From the NCBI RefSeq assembly GCF_020216525.1, contig NZ_JAIWOY010000013.1, forward strand, positions 1 through 64,000: a stretch of DNA of 64,000 bases. The letters run 5' to 3'. This document shows, piece by piece, positions 8,771 to 11,339 of the stretch. Numbering within the stretch: the first letter of the stretch is position 1; the number at the start of each line of letters is the position of its first letter. This stretch comes from Nocardioides nematodiphilus (GTDB lineage: Bacteria > Actinomycetota > Actinomycetes > Propionibacteriales > Nocardioidaceae). Made by a program: the position numbers and the translations under genes. The notes under the pieces were generated by a model, which was not told the origin of the DNA, searched no databases, and worked only from the letters and a program-made list of their open reading frames with translations.

Positions 8771-9523
8771 ATGAGCCTGCGCGACGCGTACGCGGATCTG
8801 GTGCTCGGCTCGTCGTGCCTGGGGTGCGGCGTGCCCGGACGGATGCTGTGCGCTGCCTGCCGCGGCATGCTGCCCGACAGCGCACGGGAGGTGCGCCCGG
8901 TGCCGTGCCCGCCGGGGCTCGCGCCGAGCACGGCGGCCGCCGCGTACGACGGGCTGGTCAAGGAGATGGTGATCGGCCTCAAGGAGCGGCAGCTGCTCGC
9001 CCTGGCCCGACCGTTGGGCGACCTGCTCGCGCTCGCGGTGGCGCGTCACGTGGACGCGCTGCCTCCGGCGGCCGTGGTCCTGGTCCCGGTGCCGTCGCGC
9101 GCCGCCAGCGTGCGCAGCCGTGGCCTCGACAGCACCCGTGCACTGGCGAGCCGTGCCGCGGTCTCGCTGCGCGCCACCGGGGCGTCGCGCGGCGCCGACG
9201 TCACGGTCGCCGCCCTGCTCCGCACCCGGCCCGGTCTGCAGGACCAGGCGGGACTCGACGCGATGCAGCGTGCTGCCAACCTCGCCGGCGCCCTGACCTG
9301 CCCGGCGCCCGCCCTGCGACGGCTCGCCCGGCGGCACCGCGAGGCGGTCGTGATCGTGTGCGACGACGTCATCACCACGGGTGCGACCGCCCGCGAGGCG
9401 CAGCGCGCGCTCGCCGTCGCCGGGCTGCCGATCGCCGGCATCGCGGCCGTCGCGGCGACCGAGCGGCGCCGACATCTGGACACTCGCCGTGTTTGTCTTT
9501 CGTTCACCGACGTTGCGCACTAA
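8771..9523 (+). CDS. ComF-family phosphoribosyltransferase
   Basis: ComF-type protein (250 aa) combining an N-terminal zinc-finger-like region (CLGCG, then CAAC) with a type-I phosphoribosyltransferase fold. The PRPP-binding loop reads VCDDVITTGATARE, preceded by typical ComF features: an LK near LKERQL and LVPVPSR. In naturally competent bacteria ComF acts in DNA uptake; in actinobacteria the role is unclear. The gene keeps the mycobacterial order lpqB-comF-hpf. The purine-rich GATCGGGGG before ATG 8771 is the ribosome-binding site. The opposite strand carries a 995-codon open frame across this region, which is a codon-bias shadow. Confidence 0.88.
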   Translation: MSLRDAYADLVLGSSCLGCGVPGRMLCAACRGMLPDSAREVRPVPCPPGLAPSTAAAAYDGLVKEMVIGLKERQLLALARPLGDLLALAVARHVDALPPAAVVLVPVPSRAASVRSRGLDSTRALASRAAVSLRATGASRGADVTVAALLRTRPGLQDQAGLDAMQRAANLAGALTCPAPALRRLARRHREAVVIVCDDVITTGATAREAQRALAVAGLPIAGIAAVAATERRRHLDTRRVCLSFTDVAH

Positions 9524-9529
9524 CGTCTG

Positions 9530-9850
9530 TGTATGGAGTCCGTCCGGGTCCGTGGTTGCGTCGCTCAGACGCCCGGGTTCCGGGCGCGTGAGCGGCAAGC
9601 CGATGCCAGTCGCAGGCGAAACGGTCCACGTAACCCCAGTGATGGGGGAGCACGGTGCGGCTTAGTCGTAAGTCCTGCCCCGGCCTCGTCGTCAGATACG
9701 GCGAGGCCCCGGGAGACGGTGGCGTGGCACCAAGCCGCCAAACCGCTGCAGGCGAGTGTGGGGTCGAAGACCAGGTCGGCCGGGCGGACTCCTCTCCTTC
9801 GAGGTCTGCGAGACCTCGATCCCAATCCGGCCTGATGCCGGGCTACAGGA
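9530..9850 (+). ncRNA. Long structured hpf leader, candidate raiA-motif RNA
   Basis: The 334-nt gap before hpf holds no convincing gene but is rich in hairpins: CGCTCA/TGAGCG plus CGCCCGG/CCGGGCG (9562-9594), CCCC/GGGG around AGTGAT (9634-9647), GGCCTCG/CGAGGCC (9682-9708), a perfect 8-bp CGAGGTCT/AGACCTCG (9800-9818), and CCGGC/GCCGG (9827-9841) just before the AGGAGG. A large conserved RNA, the raiA motif, is known upstream of hpf/raiA genes in Firmicutes and Actinobacteria. Position, length and hairpin density fit, but I could not check the consensus. The exact ends are estimates. Confidence 0.55.
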
Positions 9851-9857
9851 GGTTCAC

Positions 9858-10475
9858 ATGGAAGTTGTCATCACGGCTCGCAACTGCGAGATCAACGACC
9901 GTTATCGGGAACACGTCACCGACAAGCTGGCGCGATTGGAGAAGCACGACCACCGCATCATCCGGGTGCACGTGGAGGTCGACTGCGAACCCAATCCGCG
10001 TCAGAACAAGGGCGCGGTGCACGTTGAGCTGACGGCTTTCTCCAAGGGTCCGGTGATCCGCGCCGAGGCCTGCGCGGAGGACAAGATGGGCGCCCTCGAC
10101 CTGGCGCTCGACAAGATGGCCTCACAGATGCGCAAGGCGGCCGATCGTCGCCGAGTCCACCGCGGCCGGCACGCGCCGGTCTCCGTCGGCCAGGCCCTCG
10201 CCGACGTCCCCGTCGACATCGATGCGACCTCGGAGGAGGACGAGCCGCAGGAGCGGATGGTCGGACCGATCTCCGTCCTCGGCGATGGCCCCCTCGTGGT
10301 GCGCGAGAAGTCGCACTCCGCCGAGCCGATGACCCTCGACCAGGCTCTGTACGAGATGGAACTGGTCGGTCATGACTTCTTCTTGTTCGTGGACAAGGAG
10401 ACCGAGCGACCCTCGGTCGTCTACCGACGCCGCGGCTACGACTACGGCGTGATCACCCTGGACCTGGGGAAGTAG
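9858..10475 (+). CDS. hpf: Long-form ribosome hibernation promoting factor
   Basis: Long HPF (205 aa) that binds the small ribosomal subunit and dimerises 70S ribosomes into inactive 100S particles in starved cells. The N-terminal HPF/RaiA domain begins MEVVITARNCEINDRYREHV and covers about 100 residues. After a linker, the C-terminal dimerisation domain shows PMTLDQALYEMELVGHDFFLF and VVYRRRGYDYGVITL. ATG 9858 has an ideal AGGAGG at 9847-9852; an in-frame extension from 9756 would run through the leader hairpins. Expression is probably controlled through the structured leader. Confidence 0.96.
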   Translation: MEVVITARNCEINDRYREHVTDKLARLEKHDHRIIRVHVEVDCEPNPRQNKGAVHVELTAFSKGPVIRAEACAEDKMGALDLALDKMASQMRKAADRRRVHRGRHAPVSVGQALADVPVDIDATSEEDEPQERMVGPISVLGDGPLVVREKSHSAEPMTLDQALYEMELVGHDFFLFVDKETERPSVVYRRRGYDYGVITLDLGK

Positions 10476-10506
10476 TCCTAGTCCGAACAGGGTAGACATG
10501 TGGGAG

Positions 10507-10532
10507 CGGGGTGGCCCTGGTGGGCCACCCCG
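10507..10532 (+). terminator. Terminator after hpf
   Basis: Perfect 11-bp stem CGGGGTGGCCC (10507-10517) with GGGCCACCCCG (10522-10532) and a TGGT loop, 31 nt after the hpf stop. It separates hpf from the following regulator gene. Confidence 0.8.
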
Positions 10533-10595
10533 TCTCGCTGTCCACACGGCACAGTCGGGGGGTCCCGACCGGCCGGAACGTGTCATGATGCGGGG

Positions 10596-11273
10596 GTGCC
10601 TCCCACCACTTCCTCCGGCGAACCCGTCCGCGTCCTGGTCGTAGACGATCAGGAGCTCTTCCGTCGTGGTCTGACGATGCTGCTCGGCGTCGAGTCGGGC
10701 ATCGAGGTCGTCGGTGAGGCCGGCGACGGTGACGAGGGAGCGGCGCTGGCCGCGGCCTGCGCGCCGGACGTGGTGCTGCTCGACATCCGGATGCCGAAGC
10801 GCACCGGCCTGGAGGCCTGCACCGCCATCAAGGAGGCCGTCCCGTCGGCCAAGATCATCATGCTCACCGTCTCCGACGAGGAGGCCGACCTGTACGAGGC
10901 GGTGAAGTCGGGCGCATCGGGCTACCTTCTCAAGGACTCCTCGATCGAGGAGGTCGCGCAGGCCGTACGCGTCGTCGCCGACGGCCAGTCGCTGATCAGC
11001 CCGTCGATGGCGGTCAAGCTGATCGACGAGTTCAAGCAGATGTCGCGCCCTGAGCGCGAGGCGCCCGGCGGCCTGCGCCTCACCGAGCGCGAGCTGGAGG
11101 TGCTGCGCCTGGTGGCCAAGGGCCTCAACAACCGCGAGGTCGCCAAGCAGCTCTTCATCTCCGAGAACACGGTGAAGAACCACGTGCGCAACATCTTGGA
11201 GAAGCTGCAGCTGCACTCCCGGATGGAGGCCGTCATGTACGCCGTCCGCGAGAAGCTGCTCGACATCCCCTGA
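10596..11273 (+). CDS. NarL/FixJ-type response regulator, orphan
   Basis: LuxR-family response regulator of 225 aa. The receiver domain has VVDDQELFR and phospho-acceptor Asp63 in VVLLDIRMPKRTG. The C-terminal helix-turn-helix reads LTERELEVLRLVAKGLNNRE followed by KQLFISENTVKNHVRNI. GTG 10596 is the only start placing the receiver near the N-terminus; the earlier in-frame start runs through the hpf terminator. No histidine kinase is adjacent, so the partner must be elsewhere. It sits between hpf and the accessory insert before secA. A strong terminator follows at once. Confidence 0.92.
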   Translation: MPPTTSSGEPVRVLVVDDQELFRRGLTMLLGVESGIEVVGEAGDGDEGAALAAACAPDVVLLDIRMPKRTGLEACTAIKEAVPSAKIIMLTVSDEEADLYEAVKSGASGYLLKDSSIEEVAQAVRVVADGQSLISPSMAVKLIDEFKQMSRPEREAPGGLRLTERELEVLRLVAKGLNNREVAKQLFISENTVKNHVRNILEKLQLHSRMEAVMYAVREKLLDIP

Positions 11274-11290
11274 GCGACACCAGACCTGAA

Positions 11291-11322
11291 GAAGGGCCCC
11301 CGCCACCCGGCGGGGGCCCTTC
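11291..11322. terminator. Bidirectional terminator
   Basis: Perfect 14-bp stem GAAGGGCCCCCGCC (11291-11304) with GGCGGGGGCCCTTC (11309-11322) and an ACCC loop. It lies between the converging response regulator and the large secreted protein, 17 nt from each stop. T residues follow on each strand. Confidence 0.92.
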
Positions 11323-11339
11323 TCACGTCGTGCTGACCG

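Follow-up and report, generated by a model that had tools for sequence, protein, structure and literature searches.

A predicted leaderless open reading frame through the raiA RNA upstream of hpf in Actinomycetia

The locus between comF and hpf

The window (the whole stretch of 64,000 nucleotides from Nocardioides nematodiphilus, contig NZ_JAIWOY010000013.1, that was analysed) contains a raiA RNA between a comF-like gene and hpf. The features of the locus, all on the plus strand, are the following:

8771-9523, plus strand: comF-like gene, taken from the list of open reading frames; its stop TAA (9521-9523) shares bases with the -10 box upstream of raiA
9497-9526, plus strand: putative promoter, with CTTTCG at 9497-9502 (-35 region, weakly conserved) and the -10 box TAACGT at 9521-9526
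9533-9535, plus strand: leaderless ATG at the transcription start A9533, a start predicted from spacing
9533-9835, plus strand: predicted leaderless open frame of 100 codons and TGA (9833-9835), spanning all of raiA
9535-9538, plus strand: 5' strand of the P1 extension beyond the Rfam model, pairing with 9789-9792
9539-9788, plus strand: raiA RNA (RF03072), full-length match to model positions 1-209
9561-9597, plus strand: variable arm at the P2 position, an insert relative to the Rfam model
9608-9614, plus strand: P3 loop, 5' strand of pk-1, pairing with 9656-9662
9656-9662, plus strand: pk-Loop, 3' strand of pk-1, pairing with 9608-9614
9789-9792, plus strand: 3' strand of the P1 extension (CUCC), pairing with 9535-9538
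9793-9857, plus strand: spacer between raiA and hpf; it contains two hairpins and AGGAGG (9847-9852), and its structure is not conserved
9858-10475, plus strand: hpf, ribosome hibernation factor, assigned by its Pfam domains

The hpf product matches the Pfam families S30AE (E 3.3e-21) and S30AE C-terminal domain (E 7e-24), and the comF-like protein gives a Pribosyltran match at E 0.00045 and 20 bits, under the curated cut-off of 26.3. The arrangement is common: in the 150 oriented raiA loci of Actinomycetia, comF was detected upstream in 145 (tblastn with the window protein) and hpf downstream in 145.

An earlier note on this DNA had described a gap of 334 nt without a gene, forming a large structured leader of hpf. 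The length is borne out (9524-9857, from the comF stop at 9521-9523 to the hpf start at 9858), as is the structure: the predicted fold has -175 kcal/mol, whereas 100 dinucleotide-shuffled versions average -151.03 (sd 6.62), which gives z -3.62, and 2 of them fold equally well or better. The absence of a gene needs revision, as the 100-codon frame at 9533-9835 looks translated; we think that "structured leader" is an incomplete description, which misses the start codon and the open frame. The last hairpin of the gap, CCGGC (9827-9831) with GCCGG (9837-9841), is present and ends 5 nt before the AGGAGG, not six as had been given. With the spacer hairpins of the window (9793-9852) the hpf ribosome site is predicted to be almost fully paired, unlike in the average relative; the spacer is shorter in the nearest relatives, L013 and L015, and its last hairpin is similar, as seen in L013.

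A terminator had also been placed after hpf. A 10-bp inverted repeat does lie there (10508-10517/10522-10531), it has no T run, and the consensus scan of 9480-10600 gave no terminator-like site, so that the repeat is all that speaks for a terminator. Farther downstream, a match to 6C RNA at 11249-11325 stays below threshold (27.6 bits, gathering score 47, E 0.96); it is a strong GC hairpin between a response-regulator gene and a convergent gene, and is probably just a terminator-like hairpin.

Identity, structure and distribution of raiA

The RNA at 9535-9792 is a genuine raiA RNA, as follows from the full-length model match together with P1 and pk-1. It had been put forward as a candidate from its position, and the cmscan run with Rfam RF03072 confirmed it with 130.2 bits (gathering score 101.3, E 5.6e-33). 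A search of the window's own genome found one copy.

Structure statistics were obtained from a MAFFT alignment of 207 distinct Actinomycetia raiA sequences, in which covariation is present in both P1 and pk-1. P1a is paired in 99.7% with 160 double-change cells, and P1 continues for 4 extra pairs past the ends of the Rfam model (97.8% paired, 135 double-change cells). Its strands read GGAGUCC/GGACUCC in the window's family and GGCACCC/GGGUGCC in most other Actinomycetia; "the window's family" here denotes the loci with P1 reading GGAG, every checked one of which with stated kinship belongs to family f1. The pseudoknot pk-1, described from cryo-EM (PMC11751092), comprises 7 pairs in the window (AGUCGCA/UGCGGCU) and is 100% paired in the alignment with 6 double-change cells, slid registers reaching 15-43%. 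P1b, P1c, P3a, P3b and P6 are likewise 100% paired, with little or no variation. For P5, the assumed register is paired in only 33.6% of the 207 sequences, and slid registers score higher.

These data bear on the idea of a cis-acting hpf riboswitch, in which the platform would mask the hpf ribosome site or end transcription. Rfam types the raiA family as cis-regulatory, and G9848-G9851 of the ribosome site are predicted to be almost fully paired in the window. Over 129 relatives, however, the site is unpaired with a mean probability of 0.36, compared with 0.35 when the spacers are shuffled (simple letter shuffles, 6 per locus), and a terminator between raiA and hpf was sought in the window by the consensus scan of 9480-10600, which gave no terminator-like site. 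Moreover, the CUCC that follows raiA is the 3' strand of P1 and has other letters elsewhere, being GUGCC-like in other families; masking of the AGGAGG by CUCCUCUCCU (9789-9798) was rejected as a general explanation. A riboswitch of this kind is thus considered highly doubtful.

In partly overlapping samples, in which the stricter filters lose weak matches, raiA was found in 170 of 196 genomes of the genus, 74 of 245 of the order, 102 of 394 of the class and 110 of 296 of the phylum. Four members of family f8 (L049, L050, L051 and L052), with genomes of 1.2-1.7 Mb, carry raiA behind comF with no hpf match found; raiA can persist without hpf, and in three of these four the frame described below is closed.

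Promoter and first codon

Position profiles over 82 loci of the window's family and 68 of other Actinomycetia revealed a TA(A/G)CGT-like box conserved directly upstream of raiA. The predicted +1 of the window is the A of ATGGAGTCC. When the start-codon position is defined as 14 nt before the GGTCyGTGG core, the -10-like box ends 6 nt (129/150) or 7 nt (19/150) before it, and of the 150 triplets found there 135 are ATG and 13 are GTG, the last two loci having CTG and CGT. A held-out set comprised 60 more loci of the genus; in all 58 that could be oriented by the landmark motif, ATG stands 6 nt after the box. The ten loci in which the motif was missed (8 of 158 and 2 of 60) were read separately, the RTG being partly sought within 2 nt of its expected place: it is present in eight and absent from L055 and L071, while in L076 it lies nearer the box than expected and the frame is closed. 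In total, RTG occupies the predicted start in 214 of 218 Actinomycetia raiA loci (150 and 58 oriented by the motif, 10 read separately).

The sigma-70 consensus scan of window positions 9480-10600 gave no sigma-70-type promoter. The possibility that RTG is kept merely for P1 pairing was considered and rejected, since a standard partner exists for its first base in only 72 and for its second in only 93 of 150 loci. In mycobacteria, an ATG or GTG at +1 is reported to be both necessary and sufficient for leaderless initiation (PMC4633059).

An open frame through raiA

The frame that begins at the RTG (frame 0) runs through raiA without a stop in 80 of the 82 loci that make up the window's family, compared with 7 for frame 1 and 0 for frame 2, and in 57 of the 68 other Actinomycetia (frame 1: 6; frame 2: 14). 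In the held-out loci it is open in 58 of 58, frames 1 and 2 being open in 3 each, and among the eight separately read loci with RTG it is open in seven, L076 being the closed one. RTG and an open frame thus occur together in 202 of 218 loci. The frame is closed in 13 of the 150 loci; nine of these have frame 2 as their sole open frame, and the other four have no open frame.

The depletion of stops is clear within raiA. In P6-P8 of the loci with a recognised landmark, stops in frames 0/1/2 number 1/52/29 in the window's family and 4/39/22 in the other Actinomycetia; in the spacer after raiA, frame 0 has no such depletion (45/36/21 and 39/32/37, respectively).

An ordinary, untranslated raiA, with RTG and open frame as by-products of sequence conservation and high G+C content, would account for part of this picture, as structure keeps much of the 5' part constant and stops are few in G+C-rich sequence. 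Against it, the same RNAs have stops in their frames 1 and 2. Furthermore, raiAs from outside Actinomycetia were compared, a set of Bacillota, Coriobacteriia, Acidimicrobiia and other lineages in which 37 of at least 149 loci missed the motif and are uncounted. Among the matches listed, any frame is open through raiA in 20 of 112 and RTG stands 6-7 nt after a TAnnnT box in 12 of 112, whereas the same criteria give 146 and 149 of 150, respectively, in Actinomycetia; even the outside raiAs with a G+C content of at least 0.58 are open in 15 and closed in 60 of the 75 among the matches listed. The boundary of this set is approximate, since the number of its loci is a lower bound and a few contigs are named "Actinomycetes bacterium".

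Two further observations weigh against the by-product explanation. The first is that the structural frame which is avoided by stops depends on the frame read from the RTG. The landmarks were recognised in 73/82 and 52/68 loci for P3 and in 76/82 and 61/68 for the pk-loop, and stops were counted by structural frame in the 186 of 208 sequences with the landmark recognised. Where the RTG reads structural frame 1 (73 sequences), structural frames 0/1/2 hold 50/2/39 stops; where it reads frame 2 (112 sequences), they hold 112/28/7. In the window's family, structural frame 1 has 0 stops in the 27 sequences that read it and 21 in the 97 that do not, and frame 2 is nearly stop-free whether it is read or not (2 and 1), so that the effect is visible there only on frame 1. 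In the other Actinomycetia it is seen on frames 1 and 2, with 37 frame-2 stops in the 46 sequences not reading that frame and still 6 in the 15 sequences that do.

The second observation concerns length changes, which were counted on the hpf-gene tree by unit-cost parsimony, the sole count that allows for relatedness. Of 33 length changes between RTG and P3, a distance that contains the P2 arm, 30 are multiples of three in the window's family, counted over the 123 loci with the landmark recognised; over the 176 such loci of all Actinomycetia the figure is 44 of 58. Between RTG and the pk-loop, multiples of three make up 46.3 of 60 changes in the family and 62 of 86 in all. As a control, total raiA length changes by residue class in 32.7/20.6/24.7 (of 78) for the family and 41.6/36.9/34.5 for all. 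An untranslated raiA with a fortuitous frame is consequently held to be improbable.

The opposite possibility, that the frame encodes a functional small protein and raiA is both a coding and a structural RNA, draws on the frame of about 100 codons which in many species begins MESVRVRGC or MAPARVRGC. That peptide start is simply the conserved P1, and later indels put species into different frames. Differences at codon positions 1/2/3 show no bias in disjoint pairs (126/116/118 in 21 pairs of the window's family, 92/90/92 in 16 of the others) and amount to 597/608/458 and 546/459/446, respectively, when all close pairs are taken; nor does frame 0 stand apart from frames 1 and 2 in its numbers of synonymous/non-synonymous changes (78/153 and 53/112). 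Finally, a Pfam search with the 100-aa product of the window gave nothing up to E 1. A functional peptide was rejected on the codon-position counts and the Pfam search, and the dual-coding explanation is regarded as extremely improbable.

By these sequence patterns, selection keeps the frame readable and does not keep the peptide. It is probable, on the same comparative grounds, that the frame in Actinomycetia raiA is translated by ribosomes from its first base.

The end of the frame and leaders that have lost raiA

In the window the frame stops (9833-9835) 22 nt before hpf. The tests of stop placement ignore relatedness; with them, 97 of 136 stops in the window's family lie at most 60 nt before hpf, shuffled spacers giving 49.6, and frames 0, 1 and 2 stop within the spacer in 98, 60 and 31 of 136. 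Frames in phase with hpf stop before it in 36 of 38 cases, against 18.0 in shuffles. In the other Actinomycetia the effect is weak (14/51 against 9.6 for stops at most 60 nt before hpf; 12/16 against 7.3 for frames in phase). The frame stop overlaps the hpf start as ATGA in 8 of 82 loci of the window's family and in 3 of 58 held-out loci.

Leaders of hpf in which raiA is missing were examined in 28 genomes, 16 of the genus, 2 of g3 and 10 of g2/g4. The 18 leaders of the genus and g3 have all kept the box, the ATG 6 nt after it and the frame, which stops 24-82 nt before hpf in 17; in L161 it ends 175 nt into hpf. Recognisable 5' remains of raiA occur in several, among them L167, L170 and L171, and together with L173 these three leaders are relics with the promoter and the 5' strand of P1 (GGGTCCGTGG), the remainder being gone; the relics suggest repeated loss of raiA by internal decay within the genus. 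A P1-like helix was found at a shuffle p of at most 0.025 in 2 of 18 leaders of the Nocardioidaceae type (L163 and L171) and in 0 of 6 others, L433 standing outside those six; retention of such a helix is accordingly not claimed. In five of the ten leaders of the sister genera g2/g4 (L178, L179, L183, L184 and L186) the box is followed by MA*, M*, M*, M* and MHS*; these ORFs of one to three codons are a minimal leaderless frame before hpf, with the start predicted.

Another 49 leaders of the class lack raiA, of which 42 were readable (hpf went unmatched in five, and its position was impossible in two). Box, ATG and a frame stopping 14-90 nt before hpf are found in all five leaders of family f23 and in L433 and L435. 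The f23 leaders (L399, L400, L401, L403 and L410) have no raiA match and carry the promoter box, ATGGCACCC and a frame of 7-31 codons; a later stretch complementary to their first bases is no better than in shuffles. L459 is a weaker candidate for a leaderless frame, L421-L426 have GTG 5 nt after the box, and nothing similar is seen in the remaining readable leaders of the 42. Since roughly half of the other sampled families that lack raiA have no leaderless frame upstream of hpf, hpf does not need one in general.

Since box, ATG and frame persist in raiA-less leaders, the raiA promoter would appear to serve hpf as well, and the leaderless frame to outlive raiA. The earlier suggestion that raiA and hpf form a self-contained unit is upheld insofar as the promoter abuts raiA and the same promoter precedes hpf in raiA-less relatives; it does not extend to a platform masking the ribosome site.

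These leaders are relevant to a simpler explanation than the one proposed below, in which the frame would be translated only to carry the polymerase or the mRNA across the leader to hpf, by coupling or handover, with no folding switch, and raiA RNA would stem from transcripts that happen to go unread. Such coupling accounts for an open frame with no conservation of the peptide, for the persistence of the frame after raiA loss and for stops near hpf, and in M. tuberculosis nonsense codons are reported to lower downstream RNA (PMC10937400). On its own, it leaves the strict core fold of raiA in the same RNA unexplained. Five raiAs were found without downstream hpf, four of them with a closed frame, three of those from one genus; L049, of the same genus as these three, has an open frame though no hpf is nearby, which speaks against coupling. 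We regard coupling without a switch as unlikely, though it is the foremost of the rivals.

A proposed fork between raiA RNA and hpf mRNA

On the evidence of the box, the RTG and the open frame, ribosomes probably enter the raiA RNA without a leader and stop a short way before hpf. In the mechanism proposed here, Actinomycetia raiA would be part of a transcript beginning with a leaderless start codon, at whose 5' end a ribosome would bind, read through raiA in the stop-free frame and finish shortly before hpf. Folding and reading of raiA would be mutually exclusive, since the last base of the start codon and those that follow it are paired in P1, and the remaining structure would be opened by the passing ribosome. 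That so tightly folded an RNA should also be translated sits uneasily with its function in the folded state.

Two outcomes could then be distinguished. If a ribosome started early, RNA polymerase would be kept moving, the ribosome would end near the hpf start and Hpf would be made. If none started, P1 would close, the polymerase would pause and a folded raiA RNA would be released, to act in trans as in clostridia. Leaderless mRNAs are described as being bound mostly by 70S ribosomes directly (PMC9031893). Furthermore, many transcripts of M. tuberculosis are reported to end 200-500 nt from their start, and translating ribosomes to be needed for elongation past early pauses (PMC10937400); the predicted raiA product of about 260-330 nt would fit that range. 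HPF inactivates ribosomes (PMC10799931), and a feedback of Hpf on the ribosomes reading its own leader is imaginable.

The idea that it is ribosome entry which chooses between folded raiA RNA and hpf mRNA is advanced tentatively, as a step that may well prove wrong. As a whole, a leaderless-read raiA with a fork toward hpf is the best explanation at hand, and we give it an even chance; the 13 of 150 closed frames, the scan with no sigma-70 promoter, the weak stop placement outside the window's family, the trans action of clostridial raiA and the raiA-less families with no leaderless frame count against it. The broadest version is speculative and should be taken as doubtful: raiA would be, throughout the class, a ribosome-gated RNA of double use, its first three bases being a leaderless start codon at the end of P1. 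Entry of a free 70S ribosome there would lead to Hpf, which silences 70S ribosomes, and failure of entry to trans-acting raiA, so that Hpf would limit its own production by taking away the ribosomes that read its leader, and raiA would report ribosome availability.

Comparison with known systems

The raiA RNA itself, the comF/raiA/hpf neighbourhood, the structure and a trans role in clostridia are all described in earlier reports (PMC11706538, PMC11751092, PMC11477304, PMC12286853). Membership in raiA is not new. A leaderless frame overlapping raiA did not come up in the open-access papers searched, a body without bioRxiv preprints and most subscription papers. The question on which the frame bears is the molecular role of a widespread and strictly conserved structured RNA. 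If ribosomes do read actinobacterial raiA from its first base, it would be tied to ribosome status and to hpf, beyond what the clostridial work could show, and the frame would be a clear case of peptide-blind selection for an open frame inside a highly intricate RNA fold.

The window shares with raiA/ModT of Bacillota the full-length covariance model, P1, pk-1 and P6, and resembles it in having its own promoter directly before P1, with comF and often raiA/hpf genes nearby (PMC11477304). It differs in the variable P2 arm, in a P1 longer than the Rfam model, in the predicted start codon at +1 and the open frame, and in having no terminator-like site between raiA and hpf in the consensus scan. 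In C. difficile, raiA is reported as an abundant, stable RNA that acts in trans on growth transitions, and ModT as possessing a SigA promoter and two terminators (PMC11706538). The raiA structure of C. acetobutylicum has a discontinuous GNRA turn, G20-A21-A22-A183, and an E-loop in P8; the window has GCG at model positions 20-22 with the P2 arm inserted behind, so that the clostridial turn is not literally present.

The closest likeness for the frame is with the leaderless uORFs of mycobacteria (Shell et al. 2015), as reported there: an RTG follows a TAnnnT box, at a +1 that for raiA is predicted, the stop lies before or overlaps the next gene, in some cases as ATGA, and the arrangement is conserved while the peptide sequence is not (PMC4633059). 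Those uORFs are short and have no known structured RNA inside, whereas the frame of the window, which is known from sequence alone, spans a complete raiA.

In attenuation-type leader peptides, the passage of the ribosome decides which RNA structure is formed, as in the proposed fork. The window differs from them in having no visible terminator/antiterminator pair or regulatory codons, and in that its alternative product would be a trans-acting RNA.
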